Source: Tubulanus polymorphus | Taxonomy: Eukaryota; Nemertea; Palaeonemertea; Tubulaniformes; Tubulanidae | Length of the DNA stretch: 64,000 nt | Reading direction: 5' to 3' | Assembly (NCBI RefSeq): GCF_964204645.1 | Contig: NC_134029.1 | Location: 24,384,450-24,448,449 of the forward strand | Shown here: positions 18,726 to 59,308 of the stretch, in pieces | How the letters are laid out: every line of letters starts with the position of its first letter | Position numbering within the stretch: position 1 is the first letter of the stretch | Position numbers and translations under genes: made by a program | The notes under the pieces: model-generated | What the model was told of the DNA's origin: nothing | Seen by the model: only the letters and a program-made list of their open reading frames with translations | Databases searched by the model: none

Positions 18726-20695
18726 ACCCAGTCATCCAGTCATCCAGTCATCCAGTCACCCAGTCATCCAGTCGCCCAGCCGCCCACTCATCCAGTCGTC
18801 CAGTCATCCAGTCGCCCAGTCATCCAATCGCCCGGTCACCCAATCACCCAGTCGCCCAGCCGCCCAGCCGCCCAGTCATTCAGTCATCTAGTCGCCCAGC
18901 CGCCCATCCGTCCAGTCACCCAGCCGTCTAGTCACCCAGTCACCCAATCACCCAGTCACCCAGTCATCTAGTCGCCAGGCCGCCCATCCGTTCAGTCGCC
19001 CTGCCGCCTAGTCACCCAGTCGCCCAGTCACCCAGTCACCCAGTCACTCAGTCGCTCAGTCACCCAGTCACCCAGTCACCCAGTCACCCAATCGCCCAGT
19101 CGCCCAGTCACCCAGTCACTCAGTCGCCCAGTCACCCAGTCACCCAGTCATCCAGTTATCTAGTCGCCAGGCCGCCCATCCGTTCAGTCGCCCTGCCGCC
19201 TAGTCACCCAGTCGCCCAGTCACCCAGTCATCTAGTCGCCCAGCCGCTCATCCGTTCAGTCGCCCTGCCGCCTAGTCACTCAGTCGCCCAGTCACCCAGT
19301 CACCCAGTCACCCAGTCGCCCAGTCACCCAGTCACCCAGTCACTCAGTCGCCCAGTCACCCAGTCGCCCAGTCACCCAGTCATCCAGTCATCTAGTCGCC
19401 CAGCCGCCCATCCGTCCAGTCGCCCAGTCGCCCAGTCACTCAGTCGCTCAGTCACCCAGTCACCCAGTCACCCAGTCGCCCAGTCACCCAGTCGCCCAGT
19501 CACCCAGTCACCCAGTCACCCAGTCACCCAGTCGCCCAGTCACTCAGTCGCCCAGTCACCCAGTCGCCCAGTCGCCCAGTCACCCAGTCACCCAGTCACC
19601 CAGTCACCCAGTCACCCAGTCGCCCAGTCACTCAGTCGCCCAGTCACCCAGTCGCCCAGTCGCCCAGTCACCCAGTCGCCCAGTCACTCAGTCAACCAGT
19701 CACCCAGTCATCCAGTCACCCAGTCATCCAGTCGCCCAGCCGCCCAGTCATCCAGTCATCCATACAGCCGCCCAGTCGCCCAGTCACCCAGTCACCCAGT
19801 CACCCAGTCACCCAGTCGCCCAGTCACTCAGTCGCCCAGTCACCCAGTCGCCCAGTCACCCAGTCATCCAGTCATCTAGTCGCCCAGCCGCCCATCCGTT
19901 CAGTCGCCCAGCCGTCTAGTCACCCAGTCACCAAATCGCCCAGTCGCCCAGTCACCCAGTCACCCAGTCATTCAGTTATCTAGTCGCCAGGCCGCCCATC
20001 CGTTCAGTCGCCCTGCCGCCTAGTCGCCCAGTCACCCAGTCATCCAGTCATCTAGTCGCCCAGCCGCCCATCCGTCCAGTCGCCCTGCCGCCTAGTCACC
20101 CAGTCGCCCAGTCACCCAGTCACCCAGTCAACCAGTCATCTAGTCGCCCAGCCGTCCATCCGTTCAGTCGCCCTGCCGCCTAGTCACCCAGTCGCCCAGT
20201 CACCCAGTCACCCAGTCATCCAGTCATCTAGTCGCCCAGCCGCCCATCCGTCCAGTCACCCAGCCGTCTAGTCACCCAGTCACCCAATCGCCCAGTCGCC
20301 CAGTCACCCAGTCACTCAGTCGCCCAGTCACCCAGTCGCCCAGTCACACAGTCACACAGTCACCCAGTCACCCAGCCACCCAGTCGCCCAGTCGCCCAGT
20401 CGCCCAGTCACTCAGTCGCCCAGTCACACAGTCACCCAGTCATCCATCCAGTCGCCCAGCCGCCCACTCATCCAGTCGTCCAGTCATCCAGTCGCCCAGT
20501 CACCCAATCGCCCGGTCACCCAGCCGCCCAGTCATCCAGTCACCCAGTCACCCAATCACCCAGTCGCCCAGCCGCCCAGTCACCCAATCACCCAATCGCC
20601 CAGTCACCCAGTCACCCAATCGCCCAGTCGCCCAGCCACCCAGTCACCCAGCCACACAATCGACCAGTCACCCAGTCGACCAGTCATCGAGTTAG
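18726..20695. repeat. 9-bp minisatellite, about 2 kb
   Basis: About 220 units of CAGTCACCC with variants (CAGTCGCCC, CAGTCATCC, CAGCCGCCC). Blocks of 60-150 bp that include GCCGCCCATCCGTTCAGTCG recur, a higher-order pattern. All frames are repeat artefacts. Confidence 0.95.
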
Positions 20696-21228
20696 CCAGG
20701 AACCTAGCCCAGGTATCACAAGTGATTTAAGATTTGACTCAGAGTTAACCCATGATTGTGGAACTAATGGTTGTGGTACTTCAGGAAAGGTTGACTGAGA
20801 ACAGGCTTAGATAATACCGAAGCACCTTCCTATCAACCACTGATTGTGATGTAATAATGGCCGCGTGTTTGTTTTATCGCTGATGGATCTGATCATCATT
20901 AAACAACCACCAGATAAACAATCATCAAAGTAGTAATAACAGCAAATTACACGAATAACTGTTGGGAACGGTGGCTGTGAAGAGCGGTGGCTTATGGAAG
21001 AAACATGCGCCATTTTTCTTATCGATGGATTTCGTAATGAACTCATCGTTCAATAATCATCTTCTGTAATTATGTTAGTCTTATCTGAACCTATTTACTT
21101 TTAGTAGATGAGCGAAGTTTGCGCTATAATGACATCTGAATCATATAAAAATCTAACACTAAGAATGAAAATTAGTATATAATCTTTCCCTGAGAGTCCA
21201 CGGATACAAGGCCCTATAGATCTCAAGA

Positions 21229-43772: not shown

Positions 43773-45315
43773 ATGAGTGAGGAAACAAAGGTAAGGACTG
43801 TGTCAGTGGTGTGCACCTCTCTCTCAAATCTAGACTATCCCCCACTCCGCATTGCCAAATCTGCTAAATTATTGCATTGGCAGTAATGACATGGCACTGC
43901 TGCCAGGGGCAGGGCTCTTTCACGATGAAACTAGACCTTTTCCTCCTCGTTCTCGTCAGGGGGTAAGAGAGAGTTTCTGTATAGAGACTTCAACTGAGAA
44001 GCCGTAAGCTGTTGTTGCGCCGGGTCGGTGTCCTCTCTAACCACTAAGTACATTATTTCCATTTTTTAAAATGGAGAACAAGTTGTCTGATTAGGTTTAG
44101 GGCCTATAATAAAAATTTAAACAAATGACTCGTAAGTTACCTCTCCCTCACATGGATGAGTCTTCGTTCCGAGTTTAGGGGAGCGACCTGAGGGCAGGGG
44201 GTAGAAAATCGGTAAGGTTCATGTTTAGGCAGGTGCTCCGATGTAGTTAAGCTCTCCTCATACAAAAAAGAGGGTTTATGTTAAACAGTGTGAAAACGAG
44301 GTGTCACATTTATACCCAGCTCATTCTGACATACATCAAATGGTTTTTATTGATATTTTTTTTGCAGGACGTTAAACCTGGATCTGAACATATCAATTTA
44401 AAAGTCAGCGGACAAGATGGAAGCATCGTACATTTTAAAATAAGAAAGAGTACTCCTTTAAAGAAGTTGATGCAAGCGTATTGTGATAGACAGGTGAGTA
44501 GTAGTCATCTGCTGGAGTTAGCTCCGGACCAGGTACATACGCGCAATGGCCTGATTTATTTTCACGATTGGCAAACTTACGGTTTTTGAATTTTGGTGTC
44601 TTCTGGTGATGAGTGACACAAAGTTCCCCTTGAAAAGAAAGTCCCCACTGAGGAAATGAAATAAATCATTCGGGTTTATATTTTGTTAAAGTTCACACGT
44701 CCCAATATCAGGGAATGAAAACCAACTATCAACTGGTTTTATTTGAAACAAGTTTTCAGCTCAACTAAATCCGGTGAATATTGATATGAATGATTTTTAT
44801 TTCAGGGCGTTTCTTACAAACAAGTTCGATTTGTATTTGATGGAAACAGAGTGAATGAAGGAGATACACCTTCCCTTGTAAGTATAGTACAGGAGAACTC
44901 CGCTGTAAACTGGCTGCTTTAGAGTGAAATTCCTTACAGATTCATTACTAAACTTGATTCATCCCCTACTTAGTAAACTACGTTACTGCGTTAATGTTAG
45001 GTGAATGTTATTGAGGATGTAAAAATCCTAAAATTCTATGATCTCATAAGTCTGTATTCGTTTTAACTATGTAAGAGAAATTACGGCCCAAACAGAATGT
45101 TCTGGAATCAGGCGGAGTCTACTGTAGACTCTGTCTCTTACTGCAGTAAAACTTTACCTTAATTCGTGTTTCACATACTAAGTGAGATTCTTTTTCCCTG
45201 TATGTTCCAAGACTAAAAGTGATTAATTCGATTTTGTTTGTGATTACAGTTAGAAATGGATGATGAAGATACAATTGAAGTGTTCCAGCAACAAACAGGA
45301 GGGATGAACACTTGA
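43773..45315 (+). CDS. SUMO: SUMO2/3-type small ubiquitin-like modifier
   Basis: Precursor of 93 residues that is trimmed by SENP proteases and joined through its C-terminal glycine to lysines of mainly nuclear proteins by the SAE1/2 and UBC9 enzymes. Four coding exons, all phase 0: 43773-43790 (MSEETK), 44368-44493, 44806-44877 and 45250-45315. The fold starts at [12 protein letters not shown]. The helix reads [14 protein letters not shown], then [30 protein letters not shown] and TGG followed by the tail MNT, removed on maturation. GQDGS, TPL and FQQQTGG place it with SUMO2/3 rather than SUMO1. The short N-terminus lacks the usual SUMO2/3 acceptor-lysine motif, though a lone Lys sits before the first splice. 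Introns use GTAAGG, GTGAGT and GTAAGT donors. A long 3' UTR follows. It converges with the SUMO1-type gene at 47 kb. Confidence 0.95.
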
Positions 45316-46153
45316 TCGCAGTCGACGCTAATGAATCTCAAGTGTATAAAATCTTATTTGCCATGAAAACTTTTTTAAGTGACCCGATGTGTTGTAGTAT
45401 GAATGAACACAGCAATGTCTCATCTACAAAAACTAATCCTGCATTTATTCGCACAAAAATCAGAAACGAAATTTAATCACTATATTTTGCGTTCATCTAA
45501 GTTTCCTGAATTTGAAGAGTATTTTTTGTGGTCCCAAAATTATTATTTTTGTCGTCATTTTATGTGCTTAATCTGTGTACATTTGACTCGTCCTAACTGA
45601 CCTACTCAGTGCCTGTGTCAACTCTATCAGAACCAATCACGAAATATTAAACAGAAATCTCAATGCTATGGAATAAGGCAGTGTTTAATGTGTGGAATTC
45701 GAAATGTCCCAGTTTGATTAGATCGCTGAATGAATTCGTACTAATCTATTACTGTGGAGTGAAATATCGAGATCTGTAGAACTGTGTCGTGTATGTCTGT
45801 CCCGATCCGGTTTTAATGTTCAGTTTGTGTATCTTCACCGCACAGAAATTAGCTGTTTATGATTTTACTAAGTTCCGATGAAACGAATGTTCTCGACTTG
45901 TCCGAACGCCCGTCACACCTTGTATCGTCGACACCTGCAAACTGTGTCATTTGTCTCGTCGCAGCAAACTCTGAACTGTCAACGGTTCCTGCAACTTTGA
46001 AGCAGTTCCGAATGGTTTTAAACGCAGTGTGCTTGAAATACATGTAATTCATGTTGAACTAACGATTTTTGACTTAAAATTAGTTTTTGTGTGAATTTGA
46101 GAAGCTTATGTTAAGTGTTATTCAAAATCTGTTCGAATTTCATAGAAAATGAT

Positions 46154-46159
46154 AATAAA
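46154..46159 (+). terminator. Polyadenylation signal of the SUMO2/3-type gene
   Basis: AATAAA on the plus strand about 840 bases after the SUMO2/3-type stop, followed by an AT-rich stretch. The signal of the opposing SUMO1-type gene lies about 450 bases further on. Confidence 0.5.
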
Positions 46160-46574
46160 ATGACTTATATATGTATATACATTATATATAAAAACTAAAC
46201 TTATGACTACTGTTTTTATTATTTCCTCCTTTTGTAATTTTCCTTTCCTCTCAGTTGGCTATACACGTATAACTAATATCGCCTTCCATTCAAGAAGTTC
46301 TATTTCTCAATAGAAACCGTATGGTGCTGCCACCTAGCACATTGTTTTTTGTATAACATGAGGTCGTCGGAGTTCATTACAGTTTAATCATTCAAACATT
46401 GTTTTAGTGAATATTTGTGTATTTCGAATGAACATTCCTTGGTTCCTACTAAACTGTTGCACCACCTCCAGACATTCCACATGAAGTGGGGTCCTCACGT
46501 GGTTAGAATGCGTCCCGGTAAAAACTGCTGCATTTAACTAACCCCAACACGGACCTGGCCAGCCAGGACACTTA

Positions 46575-46803
46575 TTCCAAATACACACAAATATGTATTC
46601 AATAATTTTATTAATTCCGATATTAATCAACGATAAACGTAATTTAATAACGCACATAAAATGATTGATTTGTTATGAATTTCAGACAAAAAACTACACG
46701 TAGGTTAGGACCAGTTTTGACGCGAACACTATCAATCATCCCTGAGTATTAACTATTTTGAGGTATATGAATTGGCTGCGGTTATTTCAGACCACGTAAA
46801 GTT
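46575..46803. repeat. Duplicated 3' flank of the SUMO1-type gene, copy 1
   Basis: About 230 bp resembling 53918-54160, with shared blocks GTATTCAATAATTTTATTAA, CATAAAATGATT and CAGACAAAAAACTACA. It contains the candidate polyadenylation signal of the SUMO1-type gene. Confidence 0.75.
46607..46612 (-). terminator. Candidate polyadenylation signal of the SUMO1-type gene
   Basis: AATAAA on the minus strand about 515 bases past the read-through stop of the SUMO1-type gene. It lies inside the segment that is repeated at 53.9-54.2 kb. Confidence 0.4.
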
Positions 46804-47126
46804 ACAATGATATGCATTGTTTCATCAATGACCTGAATTAGCGCTGGCAAAGGATACTACCTTACTATATAACTATGTATAAGTTGGACCAGACTAAAAA
46901 AGTGCCTCTTTAACATTAAGTTCATCTCCGATGTTTCCAGGAGTGAAATCTTGGTTGCGAATTATGGTACCGCGTTTCCCTGGTATATTCGTTGTATGGC
47001 TTATTTGACCGAGAAGGAATTCGACTTATCTGTTGAAGCAAAGTTCAAGGTTTCTCCTTCAAAGAGAGAGACACAATAATCGAATCGATGTTATATCATT
47101 TGTTAATGTTTCATCAGATTTCATCG

Positions 47127-48190
47127 TTAATGTATAAAAGAAATACCCGTTTGTTCTTGGTAGACCTCCACAACGTCTCCTTCCTCCATGTATAACTGTA
47201 ATATCAGAAACACATTATTTACACTGCACGAACATTATACGCGCCTGTATTCATTCTATATATTCGCCAAATGTAACTTGGTAAAAATTGATAGACTCTA
47301 TTTCCAACTGGCAGTTTTTACTGCACTTTGTTAACAGTCTCAAGGCAGAATTCGAAATAAACTTACTTGCTTTGGTGATACATCGTCAGCTATTCGATTT
47401 CCATCGAACAAGAATCTTAGACTATTCAATGATACGCCCTGAAAGAAATTACAAAACATTATCGGGATAAAGAGCTCATTTAGTTTGCGAACAGTTTGTA
47501 ATGTGAAGTCTCTGGGTCAGACTTAAAGCGGTATCGGTCCTAAATGTCCACAGTAGTTCACCCCTCCCAGTTCAGCCAGCGGCTCGCCACGCACCTGTCG
47601 ATCTGCAAACGCTTGCTTCAATTTCTTTAATTGAGTAGTTTTCTTGATTTTGAAATGAACCTCGCTATTATCGCTTCCCACAACTTTCAAATTGATGTGG
47701 TTTTCTTCAGGATTCTGAAATAAACACATTTGAATTAGTCAAATCGCTTTTGTACGCGGGTAAGCAATTGGGCCCAAGTGTCTGGGTGGCTGGGCGACTG
47801 GGCGACTGGGTGACTGGGCGACTGGGTGACTGGGTGATTGGGTGTGGCTGGGCGACTGGGTGGCTGGATGACTGTGTGGCTGGGTGACTGGGCGACTAGG
47901 TGACTGGGTGATTGGGTGTGGTTGGGCGACTGGGTGACTGGACGACTGGGCAGCTGGGCGACTGGGCGGCTGTGTGACTGGATGACTGGGTGACTGGGTG
48001 ACTGACGACTGGGCGACTGGGCTACTGGGTGACTGGGCGACTGGGTGACTAGGTGACTGGATGACTGAGAAGGGGGGTGGCTGGATGGCTGGTGGCTGGG
48101 TGACTATTGAGGGAGTTCTAGGGGTAGACCTTACATCTGGCCTAGTTCCTACCCCGAGTTTTACACACTTACCTCATTGAACTCACTCAT
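47127..48190 (-). CDS. SUMO1: SUMO1-type small ubiquitin-like modifier, C-terminus atypical
   Basis: Four coding exons on the minus strand: 48190-48173 (MSEFNE), 47714-47595, 47438-47367 and 47195-47127, 92 residues if the last is read through. Intron positions and phases equal those of the neighbouring SUMO2/3-type gene. [43 protein letters not shown] and [15 protein letters not shown] match SUMO1 closely. After QTG the frame continues ISFIH and stops, so the second glycine needed for conjugation is absent. A GT donor sits directly after ACGG, within the glycine codons, so a further short exon may complete the tail. The candidate acceptors I checked downstream (ending near 46755 and 46829) also yield only one glycine. 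Intron 1 carries a 9-bp minisatellite. The protein may be conjugation-dead, or the last exon was missed. Confidence 0.85.
47790..48110. repeat. 9-bp minisatellite in intron 1 of the SUMO1-type gene
   Basis: GGGTGACTG and GGGCGACTG units, the reverse complement of the unit at 18726-20695. The two arrays lie 27 kb apart and in opposite orientation. Confidence 0.9.
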
Positions 48191-49323: not shown

Positions 49324-50128
49324 AGGCTGACTTATATCGACAAGCAACGCGACGCCTACCGACGCAACTGGGTTTATTGCCGATTAGCGGCAACTAGCGG
49401 CCTACGAGAGGCCGCCAGTTGCTGCTCAATCGGTTCGACATAAGCCGGCTTGCGACGGCAACCCAACGCCTACCGACTCGTTGCAAGCCATATCCGGCTA
49501 GTTGCCCATGTTCTACTCCGGCCTACGGTAGGCGGACAGTTGCTTTCGATCACAACCGACATAAGCTCATCTGCGACGCGACGGAACTGAGCGCAAGGGT
49601 TCCAGCCAATAAGAGGCCGCATATACATAGTACAAATTATGACCGCTAGTTAGCGTCATTCGTAATTAGTCATAAACTTTCAAAATTCAAGTATTTCGAA
49701 ACGTTAACCAAAGTTTCAGCACGGCAGATGACTGGACTGAAGATCTAGAAGCGAAATTGGTAGAATTATGGTGTGAGCGGCCATCTTTATATGATGTCGC
49801 TAGCTCATTGTATTCAAAACAGAATCAGAAAGATAAAGATCTTAAAGAAATAGCTTTTCTAATAGAAACGTATTTCCCAATAATTCAAAATAAATCAAAT
49901 TTATTCTCAAAATGCTTATCACGTGACCATCTGGGCCGTTGCAGTTGCCAGTAATCGTAACCGACATAAGCAGGGAAGCAACTGGGAGGATCTCGTATCC
50001 CGATAGTCGGCCTCAGTTGCCGCGAATCGGAGCTTAGTCGACATAAGCTGGGCTGCGATCGCGGTCGCTCTCAGTTGCGTCGGTAGGAGTCGGTAGGCGT
50101 CGCGTTGCTTGTCGACATAAGCCAGCCT
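49324..50128. mobile_element. 805-bp TIR element with MADF-like coding relic
   Basis: The ends are inverted repeats of about 46 and 56 bases (AGGCTGACTTAT at the left, ATAAGCCAGCCT at the right; both then carry CAAGCAACGCGACGCCTACC or its complement), with TA on both flanks, the mark of a TA target duplication. CGACATAAGC recurs five times on the plus strand (near 49436, 49555, 49966, 50037 and 50111). Inside, about 49718-49954 encodes a peptide like a MADF domain (DDWTEDLEAKLVELWCERPS, then LYDVASSLYSKQ and DLKEIAFLIE). MADF or Myb-like genes are common passengers of DNA transposons, but no transposase is visible, so the element is non-autonomous. It ends about 50 bp before the start codon of the first kinase gene. 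Confidence 0.65.
49718..49951 (+). pseudogene. MADF-domain-like coding fragment inside TIR element
   Basis: After TTTCAG at 49714-49719 the frame is open for about 75 codons. LVELWCERPSLYD fits the start of MADF domains (hydrophobic pair, acidic residue, Arg-Pro, Leu, Trp or Tyr-Asp) and LKEIAFLIE fits the third helix. No start codon or donor is assured, and the frame stops at 49952. It is probably a transposon-borne DNA-binding relic. Confidence 0.45.
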
Positions 50129-50180
50129 TACACGTTCTGTGGTTCCCAATACGTCAGAAGCGATAAACACTAGTGAAAAC

Positions 50181-53100
50181 ATGGCCGATAAGACAGTGTC
50201 AAAAGCTATCCCAATATCGTGTGAAACTGCAGCCGAATTGCTGCAGGAATTGTACGGACTCGACTGCGGCGCGGACTTGAAGTGTCTCGGTGGCCTTTAC
50301 GATGCTAATTTCTACCTCAAAACGACGAAAACGAGTGAAGAATTTACGCTGAAAATATTGAATTCTGAACAATCAAAACATCCGCAACAAACAGGTAAAC
50401 ATGACAAAAATGCGTCTTGAAAAATTGACATGCCTATCGAGATGATTACGGCATGAATGATCCCAGTGCCGTATTTGTATTAACATCCTGTTCTCAAGCA
50501 ATCGTTAACAGTTTTATGGTGTATGATACTGGTATGAACATCATATATCTGAATATGAATAGAAGATATAGATTTAGTACCGGCCCTAATTTAGACTTAC
50601 AAGCCATCTATATCTATATGAAATGATTACAATACCACGAATACGTTATAGAAAGAATCTCTCTACGGAATTAATAGTTAAAATTAGATTTAAAAGTGAA
50701 TTCATTTTTGACCATGCAGTCATTATAAAGAATGATCTGGTGACTAGACATAATTCGTATGAATGGAAACTGTTGACAAGGTTTTCAAAGTAGAGTCAAT
50801 ATCTTAAACTGTAATCAGTAAAACACGTAGTAAAACTAGTATTATATAATATGTATGTATGTTTGTGTATAGCGCTGTATATACTATTCAGTATTCAATT
50901 ACTGATTATGTCATTTACCAATACAACACGACATATGTGTCTAACTCGAAGCGACACTTTTTTTCCAAAAAAAACATTGACTAAAACGTTTTATATCACA
51001 TGTATTATATAATGGGATGCATTGCCGCAGGTAGATATATCAATCAATATGCCGTTCTTTCAAAATGTGAGTTTAATTCTTTTCGCAATTTGAGAATAAT
51101 GAGGGGATTGATTTACGCACACGAGGCTCGGAACAAAGACAAACAGAAAACAGAAAACGGACGCCCCGCCTCACTATACCGTACGGTGCTGCCGCTATGC
51201 TCAACACTAGCGGAATTTTCATACACTGACGTTAGCTAACTCTGGCAATCTATGTAAGTCTACTGCCAGAGTTGGCCCGTGTTAGTGTATGAAAAATCCG
51301 CTAATGATAGACATAGCGGCAGCACCGTACGGTCTAATGTATTTCTGCGTTGTCCCTCCAATACCTGCATGGGTTTGAGTGTAAAATAGATAATCAAATA
51401 AAATAAAGCAGGCGCTCAGAATTCAAGCGTTGATGTATGTTTATCAACCTATATATTGATTATAGGTAGTTATTTTCTGTACAAGTGTCATATTTATTCA
51501 TAAGATCAAAACCCATTATATACACACATACGATACCTCTTTCTCGATATATCATTGTATTAGATTTGTAAATGGTGGGTCGGTTGGATTTAGGGGGTCC
51601 GGGCCTTGGACCCCGCTAGTGGCCTCGAGGGTTGGAACCCGCTAGTGGTCTTTTACATGGCCGCTTTATCTAGAAAATGCCTTTTCATTTCTTCTGGACC
51701 CTGGCCTTCCAAATTTACCAGATCCGCTCCTGAAATGACTTTACAGTCCTTTTCTACTCCCACGATTTTTCTTATATTTTTGTTCCAGTTGCTCAAATAG
51801 AAGTCATGAAGTTTCTGATCGAAGAGAAAGATGCAGTTTTACCGCATACTTTATCAACAGTCGACGGCGATTTGTATCAAATTAGAGAAATTCCTTATGA
51901 AAGAACGACAGGTGAAAGAAAAGACACGAAGGAAAAAACAAAAGTTTAAAAATGAAATTTTACAAACGAACAACGAGGTGTCCTATTTGATCAAAATCTC
52001 CAAAATAAATTCACTATCTAATCTTAAATTTTGAAATAATGGATTATCGCATCTGACTGCGTTTGTTCTGTACCCATCAGGAGATGCGGAAAATATGAAT
52101 GAATCGATGAAAAGTGGTTTGCATCTGGTGAGGTTACAGACGTTTCTACCGGGAACAGTTTTTCACGATATTCCAGCGGAGAAAGTTCCCAGTGGATTTT
52201 ACTACCAGCTCGGTGAATCTATTGCCAATCTACAAAAATCACTTCTGGTAAAATCAACAGCCAACTCTAGTAAATGTTTGATATTAATTCAAAATGTCTA
52301 AAAGCCAATTGTACATAACGTGATTAGAATTAACTCTGGTAAAGTTATTAGTATTATGTTGTGTGCAATGAGTATCGTTTCTTTTTTCTAACGAAAGTTA
52401 TCGAATCTAAAAGCGTCATACATTCTATATTTCTATGCAGGAATGTCCGGTCAATTTACCCCGTGTTCCACTGGAGGCCGATAAATGGAATCTGATCAAC
52501 CTTCCTCGATTACGAGATTTACTTCCACACGTCAAGCATTCCGAACATAGACAAGTTCTCGACAACATAATTACAGAATTTGAAGAAATTGTTCTCCCAA
52601 ATTTACAATATATGCGTTCAGGTATGTGACCTATATGAATAGGTGTACTGACGTCTTATTGGACGTCAAATGGCAGTGAACCATGTATAGTAACCGCATG
52701 CACATGATGTCCAATATGACGCGCAGTAAAATCAACTCCATCATCTCCATACACTTTGCCTGACTCGATAACGCGCGCACCGACTTGAGAATCATGAAAA
52801 TAGATACTTCGAACAAATTTCATTAAATTTCACCGAGTAAGGAGGAGTCTGAACTGGGCCTTGGTTAATCAGGAACGGGTCCAGGGGAGGATGCAGGGGG
52901 CGCGCACCCCTCCGAAAAATATCAAGTTACCTTGAAATTTCTACACGGGAAAATTAAAGATATGGAAACTGAAATCTAAAAAGTTTACATTTATAAGCTT
53001 CTTTTTTGTATCTAAAATAGAGTTAGTTTCCCGATGAGCACCCTCACTGAGCGGCACCCTTCAATTACGTGATATGTCCTATTATGGGGTAGCATCCCTC

Positions 53101-53672
53101 CGTGAATCAGACCCCAGATCAGCCCCTGTCAATGAGGCCAGAAATCTAAACTTTCTATTCAACAATTGTTACCTCGTATAACGTTTCTATTTCATATAGA
53201 ATATAATTCAATCACTGCTTATGTCTATATTTCTATAGGAATTCTACATTGCGACTTGAACGAGAAAAACACGATCATCTCCGAGTTAAACAACGACCAG
53301 ATAAAACTCGCCTTCATTGATTATGGTGATTGCGGTCATTCGTATGTTGTATTCGACTTGGCCATCGCGCTCATGCATTTCACGTACGACAACAAGGGTC
53401 GTGATATATTTGAAATATGTCGCGAGATTTTACGCGGTTACGCTACGAATTTCTACATTACGGAGGCGGAAAAACGTGCTTTGAAGACTTGTATCTGCGC
53501 TAGATTCACTCAAGGTATTCTGATAGGATCGAGTATCTATGCGCGAGATCCGACTAAGACATCGGCCTTAGATTTCTACCGTAACGGATGGTCGGTTCTG
53601 GAGACATTCTGCGAAAGCAAAAATGATCAATTGTGGAGCGTCGGTGATCAGGACCCAGTTCCACAGTTGTGA
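50181..53672 (+). CDS. HYKK: Hydroxylysine kinase-like protein (APH-type kinase), copy 1
   Basis: Member of the hydroxylysine kinase (HYKK/AGPHD1) branch of aminoglycoside-phosphotransferase-like kinases; the vertebrate enzyme uses GTP to phosphorylate 5-hydroxylysine in lysine breakdown. Five exons: 50181-50394, 51789-51911, 52081-52247, 52441-52621 and 53239-53672, giving 372 residues, close to the usual length of about 370. Conserved features are the ATP-lobe lysine in FTLKILN (Lys 58), the catalytic loop HCDLNEKN (Asp 234, Asn 239) and the metal-binding IDYGD (Asp 256). The loop has Cys where most relatives have Gly (HGD). Donors and acceptors are canonical and phases fit. The last six or seven residues (ending DPVPQL) and the stop lie in an inserted palindromic element. 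The start is 53 bp from the end of a TIR element. Whether this copy keeps the vertebrate substrate is unknown. Confidence 0.88.
51178..51333. mobile_element. Palindromic MITE, CCGTACGG family, copy 1
   Basis: About 156 bp with inverted ends (TACCGTACGGTGCTGCCGCT at the left and its near complement at the right) and inner inverted blocks AGCGGA and TTCATACACT. It lies in intron 1 of the first kinase gene. Two relatives lie at 54711 and 62734. Confidence 0.75.
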
Positions 53673-53763: not shown

Positions 53764-53917
53764 AGTAACTTTTATTTTCAATTTTGTTCTTTTTTGAGGT
53801 CGGGAATTGCTAGAAACTATAACAGCTTAAACAAAAATTTGTAATTCTTAATGTTCAAAATCCTCTGTTTACTAAAAATACGGAGCCCCATAACGATGTT
53901 TTCTGACCAGTCGGCAC

Positions 53918-54160
53918 TCTTTATTTCACATACACACAAATGTATTCAATAATTTTATTAATTCCAACCAACGAAAAACATAATTTAATAACGAACATAA
54001 AATGATTAATTTGTTCAGAATTACAGACAAAAAACTACATGTATAAAGTTTAATTAAACATGACCCGATTTTAAAGCGAACTCTCTCAATCCATCGCTGA
54101 GTTTTAACTGATCTGAGGTATAAATGGGCTGCGGCTATTTAATATCACGTAAGAGAACTT
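53918..54160. repeat. Duplicated 3' flank of the SUMO1-type gene, copy 2
   Basis: Same orientation as 46575-46803 and lying just downstream of the first kinase gene. No SUMO coding exon accompanies it. Confidence 0.75.
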
Positions 54161-55506: not shown

Positions 55507-56453
55507 GCATAGGGACAGAATACATTACATTCGAATAACATTAATTATAATACGTCAGAGTAGGCGGAAATAAGTTTACATTTGGCCCGGCTCAAACCTG
55601 ACGGCGCCAACCGCGTGAAAATATTAATCGCGCCTATTTTTCGTTGGTTTCCGCGGAGAAATTTGTTTTTGATAGCATTTGAAGGCTCTATTTGAGATCA
55701 AATCGATTGATTCACCTTTTATGAATGTTGCGGATCCTCATCCTAATTCTAGGCGCAGCTGTTTCATATAGGCGATCTCAAGTACATTTAGAAATAATCA
55801 TTATCGGCCCTGTTTATGTGTAGATGTCAATATATTTACATGTTTCGGTTTGTTCCCTTTGATTGTATATATTATTATATAATATATATAGAATACGATT
55901 ATAGGTAGCGACATCATTAATGAGTTTAATATAACCTAATGACAATTCAGCTAATTTCATATGGAAATCGTTCTTGTGCGAGAGAATGTCAATCTACCTG
56001 GTGAAGAGTTGATTTGGATGATACCAGAATGATTCCCTTTTATAACTACTGGATACGGCTGCACTGATCTCTGTAAGTTCCACATCAGACTGGTTTCATG
56101 CCACATACAAACGTGAAGAACCAATCTAAAGGTAACGAAGAAAAAATATTTTGTGAAGCTTAAGTTACGTAGTAATTATGGCGCAATTCATGATATGCCA
56201 GAAAGTTGCGGTAGAAAGACTAAGGAACCAGTTCCACAATACGCAATTTGTTATAGTCTAGTATTATTTGAACTTCAAAAAAGGGTCAACCTAATCGCTA
56301 CCACCCGTAGAAATATGGGCCCTTTACTGTCGGGGCTTAACACAAGTGATTTTAGATACCGGTTCATAGACTTTTATTGTAATAAGTTCCCGGTGTTATA
56401 ACTGTATCGAAGAGTCTACGTACAACGTTTAAAAGAGATTTTGAGATCGAAGC

Positions 56454-59308
56454 ATGTTTAAGAATTTAGTGTCCAGAGCTCTCCCGATATCGGCTGAAAC
56501 GGCAGCGGACTTAGCGCTGGAATTGTACGGAATAGTGGCGGTTGATGTGAATATCTTGGACGGCTACCGCGATGCGAACTTCTATATTAAATCTCAAAAC
56601 TGCGAGGAATATGTGCTGAAAATAATGAATGCTGAGCAGAGTAAAGTACCTAATCGAACTGGTAGGTCAGTCAGTCAGTCAGTCAGTCAGTCAGTCAGTC
56701 AGTCAGTCAGTCAGTCAGTCAGTCAGTCAGTCAGTCAGTCAGCCAGTCAGTCAGCCAGCCAGCCAGTCAGTCAGTCAGTCAGTCAGTCTATCAGGCAGTC
56801 AGTCAGTCTGTCCGCTTATAGTCAATCAGTCAATCAGTCACTTTACGATGACGACGACTTCTTTTTCAATTGTAGCCGCCCTGATTCAGATAATGCAGTA
56901 TTTGCGTGAAGAGAAGGCTGCACCGGTTCCAAAACCGGTGAAAACTATAGATGGGAATCTTTACGAGATCAAAGAAATAACTTACAACAAGAAGACAATT
57001 AGTAAGTTTCGGTGCGTCGGAGCACGATAGTTAGATGACTCATTTACCTGATAATGCTATTCATCTGTGCATTCGAAGCGAAAGATTTTAATTTCAAATA
57101 AAATCAGTTCACCTTTGCCAGCTCTTTTAACTTTTATCAATTCACTATATAAGAAATGAAAGTGTGTTCGGAAAAAACGAGACAAAAAAGAATCAAAACG
57201 AATTACAAAAAATACCTGCATACGAAATAAGACTTTATATGGAGACATTTGACCTGGAACTTGTGACCTAATTCTTACATAAGTTTGTGCGTTTGAAGTC
57301 CTGAAACTCGATAGCGTAATATCTACCCCAGTAACGGGACACAATTCTCACCGCACTGATTTCAAGTTATTTCACTTTGTTGCGAAGGATTCATGAAACT
57401 ACTTGTGAACGACCTGGGCTGGGTTTCATAGATGTGGAAGAAAGATAGTCCCTTGGAACATTTTGAAATTTGTCAGTTATAACCATGGTTTCTCATTGTT
57501 ACTATGGTGGTTGTCACCCAAATTGAGGATTTACCCTTAAGGATAACTTTGATACTCAGTCTATTAAACCGGGCCCAGGATTTTGAGTGCTTTAACATAA
57601 TGTTTTGCATGAATGATATATTGCTTTTCTATTGAATTTCCAATGTCTGTTTCATGGATTCAAATTTCAATGATCGCTTTGAAAATGTCTTCGTTATCTC
57701 AGATACTGATGAATCCAGTGATTCGATGAAAAGTGGTTTGCATCTGGTGAGGTTACAGACGTTTCTACCGGGAACAGTTTTTCACGATATTCCAGCGGAG
57801 AAAGTTCCCAGTGGATTTTACTACCAGCTCGGTGAATCTGTCGCTAATCTACAAAAATCACTTCTGGTAAAATCAACAGCAAACTGAAGTAAATGTTTGA
57901 TATTAATTCAAAATATCTCAATTGTGCAAAACGTGATTAGAATTAACTCGAGCCAGCTGCACAGTCCGCGTTTAGATTTAAGGCCAGTTTCGGACTTTCT
58001 AAGTTTTTAGACAATTTAACAACTTGTGAACCGTCTGAAGATTTAATACTACTTTTGGACTTTTGGAATTAAAATTACAATCGTGCAACTTGGCCCAGAT
58101 GGTTAAATACCATGGTTGCAATCACATTGCAATCACCACTGTCACTCTGGATCCAGTTCTACAGTTGCAAGTAAGAGTTAACTCCGAGTTAAAGTTAGTT
58201 CATTTTCGATGTTTTAACCCGGAGTCAAATCTTAACTTAGAACTGTGGAACTGGACCCAGGCCTGTTATCCACCAGTTATAGCTCGCAGCCACCTTTAAG
58301 CAACTGCAGTCCAAAAAGGTTTCCATTTTCTAATGCTATTTTGTCTACTATAGGAATGTCGAGTTTCTCTTCCTCAAGTTCCACTGGAAGTTGACGAATG
58401 GAATCTAACGAACCTTCCTAAACTACGCGATTTACTTCAATTCGTAAATAATGCCGAACATCGACAAGTTTTTGACAACATAATAACAGAATATGAAGAA
58501 ATTGTTCTCCCAAATCTACAGAATCTACGCGCAAGTAAGGACCGATGCTGAGCTACTTGATCCAGATACATATGAAGCCAGTTGCCCAAACGTTGTTTTA
58601 AGTTAATCAGCGGATAGTTAACATAGTGACAATAAGGGGTTTTGAGTTAATTTAGTTTTAATTCGTACATGTTCAAATATACGACGCATCAGCCGAAATG
58701 ATTCATCTCATTATAACTATTGATTTTTTAGTTCGACTAATTTATGTCATCAATCCGGTGGTTATTTCAACCAACTTTTAAGAAACTGTTTTACAGGATG
58801 ATTCACTATAGAATCTGCGCGGTTTGTGCTGTTTTTGAAATGAACAGTTTTAACCTTTACTCTTATACTCTACTATAGAGGATGTACTTTATTTTTTTCA
58901 GGTGTGATTCACGGTGATATTACAACTGAAAATGTAGTTGTCGCGGGTTTAAACAGCGAACAAACACATCTTTCCTTCATCGATTTCGACGACGCAAACG
59001 TCGCTTATTTGATATTCGACTTGGCGATCACTCTCACCTACTATACATGCTACAATAAGGGTCGTGATATCTTTGAAATATGCCGGGAGATTTTATCCGG
59101 TTACACTTCGAATTTCTACATTAGAGAAGAGGAGAAGCGCCTTTTGAAGACTTGTATCTGCGCTAGATTCGCTCAGAGTATGCTGATAGGATCGAGTATC
59201 TATGCGCAGGATCCGGCAAAGACATATGCTATAGATTCCTACCGTAATGGATGGTCAGTTCTGGAGAAATTCCGTGAAATCACGGATCTGTGGAATGCAT
59301 GTTCATAA
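56454..59308 (+). CDS. HYKK: Hydroxylysine kinase-like protein (APH-type kinase), copy 2
   Basis: Tandem paralogue of the gene at 50.2 kb, same strand and same exon plan: 56454-56661, 56876-57001, 57703-57866, 58354-58534 and 58902-59308, giving 361 residues. Motifs are YVLKIMN (Lys 56), the catalytic loop HGDITTEN (Asp 232, Asn 237) and IDFDD (Asp 254). It keeps the normal HGD and ends in its own tail (LWNACS). The first exons of the two copies are only about half identical in protein, while exon 3 is almost identical in DNA. Intron 1 is only 214 bp and mostly (TCAG)n; introns 2 and 3 carry palindromic elements. Repeated AATAAA motifs from about 59624 may serve polyadenylation. Function is inferred from the family only. 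Confidence 0.88.
56667..56840. repeat. (TCAG)n filling intron 1 of kinase copy 2
   Basis: It starts five bases after the end of exon 1 and makes up most of the 214-bp intron; about 30 TCAG units with CCAG and TCAA variants. Confidence 0.95.
57416..57576. mobile_element. Palindromic MITE-like element in intron 2 of kinase copy 2
   Basis: Inverted ends GGGCTGGGTTTCATAG and CTATTAAACCGGGCCC, with imperfect inner pairing. Confidence 0.5.
58149..58261. mobile_element. Palindromic MITE, same family, in intron 3 of kinase copy 2
   Basis: About 113 bp, starting GGATCCAGTTCTACAGTTG and ending GAACTGTGGAACTGGACCC, with shared inner blocks (AGAGTTAACTC, AGTTAGTTCATTTTC). It is very similar to the element at 53651. 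Confidence 0.7.
58637..58752. repeat. 116-bp repeat, copy 1 (intron 4 of kinase copy 2)
   Basis: It matches 61196-61309 at all but a few positions; blocks include ATTTAGTTTTAATTCGTACA and TATTGATTTTTTAGTTCGAC. Confidence 0.8.

Follow-up and report, generated by a model that had tools for sequence, protein, structure and literature searches.

SUMO genes in the window and the genome

The window analyzed here is a stretch of 64,000 nucleotides from Tubulanus polymorphus, and it contains two SUMO genes, Sx and S2, that are convergent, lie tail to tail (43773–48190) and have the same four-exon structure. These neighbors look as if they were the product of an old local duplication. Sx is on the minus strand and its four exons are joined in frame through clean GT-AG junctions to encode a SUMO of 92 residues. 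Exon 1 (MSEFNE, 48173–48190), which was placed by reading, has an ATG in frame and the donor GAG/GTAAGT, and exon 2 (47595–47714), which has the Pfam match and encodes beta1, beta2, the helix and the SIM groove, has the acceptor TTTCAG and the donor CAG/GTGCGT. Exon 3 (47367–47438) joins in frame to exon 4 (47127–47195), in which the joined reading frame continues without a second glycine. This is exactly where the initial annotation had placed the last exon of a SUMO1-like gene lacking the diglycine. The position of human G97 is Ile in Sx, giving the tail Gly-Ile, and the protein ends with a pro-peptide-like ISFIH before the stop codon TAA at 47127. The genomic last exon does not encode the C-terminal Gly-Gly with a short pro-peptide behind it that marks a conjugated SUMO. 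The joined four-exon reading showed neither frameshifts nor premature stops, and none of its splice sites was broken. A CCAGTCACC-type minisatellite is present in intron 1 (47782–48105), and a much larger array of the CCAGTCACC-type unit is located at 18726–20707.

The Sx protein matched the Rad60-SLD family (PF11976) with 70.6 bits, against a cut-off of 23.8, and the ubiquitin family with 56.1 bits. In a PDB sequence search the best single-domain matches were SUMO1 chains, the highest of them scoring 113 bits, and the top row by total score was a two-domain SUMO2 chain with approximately 77 bits per domain. These matches uphold the earlier description of an upstream SUMO fold that is SUMO1-like, and they indicate that Sx is a SUMO by descent, with a SUMO/Rad60-type beta-grasp domain and specific SUMO similarity. 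As Sx is 67% identical to human SUMO1, we infer that the fold is safe.

The genome searched comprised 268 Mb in 77 contigs, and three SUMO genes were found, S1, S2 and Sx, of which Sx is the odd one. A search of the genome with the Sx protein returned Sx itself, one S2 exon in the window and two S1 exons on contig C10; the remaining matches were weak (E of 0.096 and above). S1 (C10:12430194–12428134, minus strand) is a SUMO1-type gene of five exons, with the tail EQTGGGCKEYH. S2 (43773–45315, plus strand) is a canonical four-exon SUMO2-type gene with the tail QQQTGGMNT. Its exon 1 (MSEETK, 43773–43790) is inferred as the nearer of two in-frame candidates, in a scan whose donor pattern itself demanded G at +5; it is followed by exons 2 (44368–44493), 3 (44806–44877) and 4 (45250–45315), and exon 4 has the canonical diglycine with no intron within the tail.

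Four further single PF11976 matches above the cut-off (G000:C2:3121857, C1:21824646, C6:10843639 and C2:26319163) may represent additional genes of the ubiquitin-like or SUMO-like kind. On contig C5 (G000:C5:20641716–20644088, L001–L007) there are ubiquitin-like units, seven of full length and three partial. Many have the same score and a spacing of 228 bases, and together they are probably a polyubiquitin gene.

Placement and constraint of Sx

Over 76 core residues Sx was identical to native human SUMO1 at 51, C. elegans SMO-1 at 47, S2 at 45, Drosophila Smt3 at 44, S1 at 41 and human SUMO2 at 40; S1 itself shares 47 of the 76 with human SUMO1, fewer than Sx. In a tree rooted on yeast Smt3, based on 76 columns from eight sequences and hence on weak support, Sx was sister to the SUMO1 clade with an ultrafast bootstrap of 72 (76 with a C52A SUMO1 chain); the SUMO1 clade without Sx had a value of 83 and the SUMO2/3 clade 98. 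In the unrooted tree Sx lay between the SUMO1 and SUMO2/3 clades. The gene structures are a further consideration. A SUMO1-type intron follows VIGQ/VVAQ in S1 and is absent from Sx, whose exon 2 runs through this place as that of S2 does; the donor of human SUMO1 exon 2 is at the same place (PMC13174819). The label "SUMO1-type" used previously for Sx is apt by sequence, but not by this intron. As far as the compared sequences can tell, Sx appears to be a SUMO1-side paralogue, with no finer placement.

The branch leading to Sx is of ordinary length. With the G97 column left out it measured 0.196, shorter than that of S1 (0.250) and not unusually long beside those of S2 (0.166), human SUMO1 (0.158), human SUMO2 (0.109), C. 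elegans (0.185) and Drosophila (0.193). Between Sx and S2, pS was 0.73 and pN 0.27, and differences at the first, second and third codon positions numbered 19, 20 and 43 of 76. When neutral evolution of S2 was crudely simulated until it was as distant in nucleotides as Sx is (n = 1000), a mean of 26.7 and a maximum of 36 residues were kept, compared with the 45 of 76 observed, and a stop codon arose in 957 of the 1000. These simulations, like pS/pN and the branch length, average over all the time that the gene has existed and cannot isolate the period after the loss of the glycine. Saturation or near-saturation at synonymous sites means that they provide no date for Sx.

Sx alters five of the 25 columns that are invariant in six other animal SUMOs (Q29S, Y51F, T76S, I88V and G97I), compared with none to three of 20–23 invariant columns in each of the other six. 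With G97 set aside, Sx alters 4 of 24 and S1 3 of 23, so that only the glycine stands out and no general relaxation of the conjugation surface is clear. G97 itself was present in all six of the other animal SUMOs compared and in yeast. The residues described as taking part in E1-to-E2 transfer are, in SUMO1 numbering, Q29, R63, Q92, Q94, T95 and G96, with G97 also in the set (PMC9911741). Five of the six other than G97 are kept in Sx and the sixth, Q29, is Ser; the corresponding residue of yeast Smt3 is Ser as well, which makes this substitution weak as evidence. As for the SIM groove, the residues VHFKIK, K46, L47 and R54 are kept in Sx. At the twelve positions that we take to form the groove, Sx has the residue of human SUMO1 or SUMO2 at 11, and Q at position 43, as in S1. 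These residues point to a hydrophobic and basic beta2-alpha1 SIM groove in Sx.

The 3′ end of Sx and a candidate fifth exon

The initial annotation had considered a fifth exon that would supply the diglycine likely if the gene is normal, the last intron of vertebrate SUMO1 being taken to lie near this place. The sister genes do not bear this out. All three genes have their last intron approximately 16 residues ahead of the glycines, before the codons for LEL, LEM or LYM, and in both S1 and S2 the Gly-Gly and the stop codon are inside a single last exon that starts where Sx exon 4 starts. Since neither gene has an intron at the glycines, the expectation of a fifth exon in Sx is unsupported. A human SUMO2 primer fits the same last-intron place, in a table in which most primers span exon junctions (PMC13174819), and the stop codon of human SUMO1 is reported to be in exon 5 (PMC9911741).

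The GT noted earlier directly after ACGG is indeed present (47146–47145, minus strand). It is the sole GT close behind the glycine, and represents a weak potential donor (CGG/GTATTT) that scored 1.1 bits, compared with 3.2–12.0 (leave-one-out) for the ten introns of the three SUMO genes, and ranked 22 of 109 GTs. Between this GT and the S2 stop codon there are 99 AG sites, 25 of which keep at least one glycine. The initial annotation had reported acceptors near 46755 and 46829 that restore one glycine only, which is correct for the AG at 46832 (its "46829"), although position 46755 itself carries no AG. Three of the 25 sites, 46465, 46333 and 46228, restore QTGG; the first of these had been missed by the initial annotation, and the pyrimidine fractions at the other two are 0.37 and 0.16. 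Joining to 46465 would give QTGGATV-stop, reminiscent of the human SUMO1 GGHSTV, from a candidate cryptic exon 5 (46449–46465, minus strand; G/GTGGTGCAACAGTTTAG, encoding GGATV-stop) behind the acceptor TCTGGAG. We do not favor this exon. The acceptor scored −1.5 bits, below the 5.7–12.1 of all ten introns (leave-one-out), and ranked 39 of 99 AG sites; the ten introns have G at +5 and CAG, where the candidate has T and GAG. The yardstick is small, ten introns from three genes with first-exon boundaries placed by reading, and as the donor of S2 exon 1 had been picked by the G+5 pattern, nine of the ten donors are free of that choice.

The frequency of sites able to restore the tail exceeds expectation modestly. 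Three AGGNGG sites were found downstream, compared with 0.68 expected from 500 base shuffles of 47146–45340, and 1.5 QTGG-restoring sites would be expected in 99 if they were as frequent there as among the 7000 AG sites on the two strands of the whole window. Only 46465 among these 7000 combines QTGG with a tail of at most five ending in TV, a criterion set after that site had been noticed. Among the 520 AG sites out to 10 kb, seven give QTGG, none with a pyrimidine at −3 and a pyrimidine fraction of at least 0.6, and crude Gly-Gly motif patterns on the minus strand of 48190–37195 identified no other fitting peptide. A second last exon resembling exon 4 elsewhere in the genome was also considered and rejected: the search with Sx returned only Sx for that part, plus weak whole-domain matches. 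Since the same search missed the last exon of S2, its sensitivity to single exons is limited.

Ahead of candidate exon 5, at 46578–46612 on the minus strand, an AATAAA (46612) with a GT-rich stretch behind it is likely to be a poly(A) signal; the AATAAA is 147 bases before the exon. Part of the Sx 3′ region (46555–46799, minus strand) has a 78% copy at 53903–54152, also on the minus strand, which keeps the AATAAA and the GT-rich stretch after it. No SUMO exon was detectable above 54152 (best alignment 26, compared with a shuffled mean of 31), and a segmental duplication may have produced a second Sx of which this stretch is what is left. It lies between two tandem kinase-like genes, read from ORF translations at about 50121–53672 and 56445–59308 on the plus strand, which are presumably hydroxylysine-kinase-like. 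The idea that a mobile element had split the glycine codons, with 46465–46449 as the old tail, was rejected, as 47145–46466 matched only itself and one partial copy in a genome search that skips very common words. With that single partial copy (54152–53903), the 680-base stretch is not a visible repeat family.

A proposed free SUMO and competing explanations

On balance we lean towards Sx being an old, constrained SUMO1-side paralogue that lost its second glycine, became unconjugatable and, if expressed, would act non-covalently through its SIM groove. The simplest route to such a loss would be deletion of one of the two adjacent Gly codons ahead of ISFIH. As G97 is missing, maturation and charging by the SUMO E1 and E2 should be blocked, and the Sx precursor would be expected to escape both. 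Any translated Sx would then stay free and unconjugated, bind SIM-containing proteins through the kept beta2-alpha1 groove, and thereby compete with, or bridge, conjugated SUMO. The product, if made at all, probably works by loose binding only. Experimental precedents point in more than one direction. The non-conjugatable control of a yeast mutant library, G97D/G98I with the tail deleted, is listed as lethal (PMC5319795), and Sx has Ile where this mutant carries G98I. Yeast Smt3 G98A is also reported as lethal, but a plasmid-borne copy gave rescue, which suggests that its defects are no more than partial (PMC5319795). SUMO2 deltaGG was described as activating calcineurin-NFAT signaling (PMC5073337); against the generality of such effects, SUMO-2 without Gly-Gly failed to promote translation in one study (PMC4074059).

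The conjugation-type tail VYQEQTG, which is kept in Sx as in human SUMO1, would be needless in a SUMO that had long been free and points to either a recent loss or a hidden exon. It is this tail that makes a recently broken redundant copy a serious rival, one to which we give perhaps half the credence of a free SUMO or somewhat less: Sx would have been conjugated until lately and now be drifting, with its function covered by S1 and S2, both of which are intact and bear Gly-Gly. One copy may already be gone from the locus, given the 78% copy with no detectable SUMO exon, and pseudogenes are described among tandem-pair SUMO genes of Arabidopsis, along with a putative diglycine-less SUMO5 pseudogene in Brassica (PMC6680281). 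However, Sx has none of the frameshifts, premature stops or damaged splice sites that were looked for, nor a marked excess in branch length. A missed exon, in which CGG/GTATTT is joined to 46465 and Sx is a normal conjugated SUMO, would likewise account for VYQEQTG, and the length and TV ending of the resulting tail, the post hoc singularity of 46465 in the window and the excess of AGGNGG sites over shuffles speak for it, as does a listed human SUMO1 transcript in which an additional exon separates exons 4 and 5 (PMC9911741). We nevertheless judge it unlikely, because both splice signals fall below all ten yardstick introns, the exon would be behind the poly(A)-like site, S1 and S2 have no intron at that place, and the window-wide rate by itself predicts QTGG-restoring sites. 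Of the two outcomes offered by the initial annotation, a missed exon or a free SUMO, the latter thus fits better.

A combination of these two is improbable in our view, namely that the gene is a switch in which a 3′ end near 46590 yields a free SUMO without Gly-Gly and a weak splice to 46465 yields conjugatable QTGGATV; the choice of 3′ end would then set how much Sx can be conjugated. It is comparably doubtful that the sequence is an assembly or allele artefact, with two Gly codons in the real or another allele and three bases missing here. A three-base difference would suffice, but an exact in-frame loss of three bases would be unusual, and the locus was found once, on a 25-Mb contig. We place least trust in a single-glycine modifier, in which cleavage after QTG would leave Sx to be conjugated by its one glycine. 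UFM1 has just one glycine at its end, and Sx retains one glycine and a short pro-peptide; against this, its tail would be one residue short, and the SUMO residues described as touching E1/E2 and the protease include both glycines (PMC9911741, PMC5319795).

If the reading of Sx as a free SUMO is correct, it has several partial parallels. Human SUMO4 is likewise a SUMO paralogue of an animal; its maturation is hindered and, it has been proposed, it might act mainly non-covalently (PMC12687455). SUMO4, however, keeps its Gly-Gly, is hindered by a proline and is close to SUMO2/3, whereas Sx is without G97 itself and on the SUMO1 side. Conjugation-deficient SUMO-like genes of flowering plants also lack the diglycine and some arose by tandem duplication, but some of those described are concatemers or pseudogenes (PMC6680281); Sx is an animal gene with a single domain and a conserved core. 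Human SUMO1-alpha and SUMO2-alpha are naturally made and non-conjugatable; they are reported to result from exon skipping inside the fold (PMC9911741), in contrast to Sx, in which the fold is whole and one glycine is gone. Human SUMO1 and C. elegans SMO-1, which are similar to Sx over the core and, in human SUMO1, share its QEQTG tail, differ in having Gly-Gly in place of the Gly-Ile of Sx; Sx is also without the SUMO1-type intron that S1 has. SUMO-like genes without Gly-Gly are already described in flowering plants, and non-conjugatable SUMOs as human isoforms, and Sx is an animal variant of this known kind; among the titles and abstract openings listed for matching open-licence papers, none concerned an animal SUMO gene in which the glycine itself is lost. 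A scan of viral contigs with Sx gave seven pattern matches, none of which was confirmed.

Were Sx merely a decaying copy, it would be ordinary. If it is expressed and under selection, it would represent a natural animal SUMO from which conjugation has been removed by one missing residue, the rest remaining SUMO1-like. Non-covalent SUMO functions would then be open to study without an engineered mutant, in parallel with what has been proposed for SUMO4.
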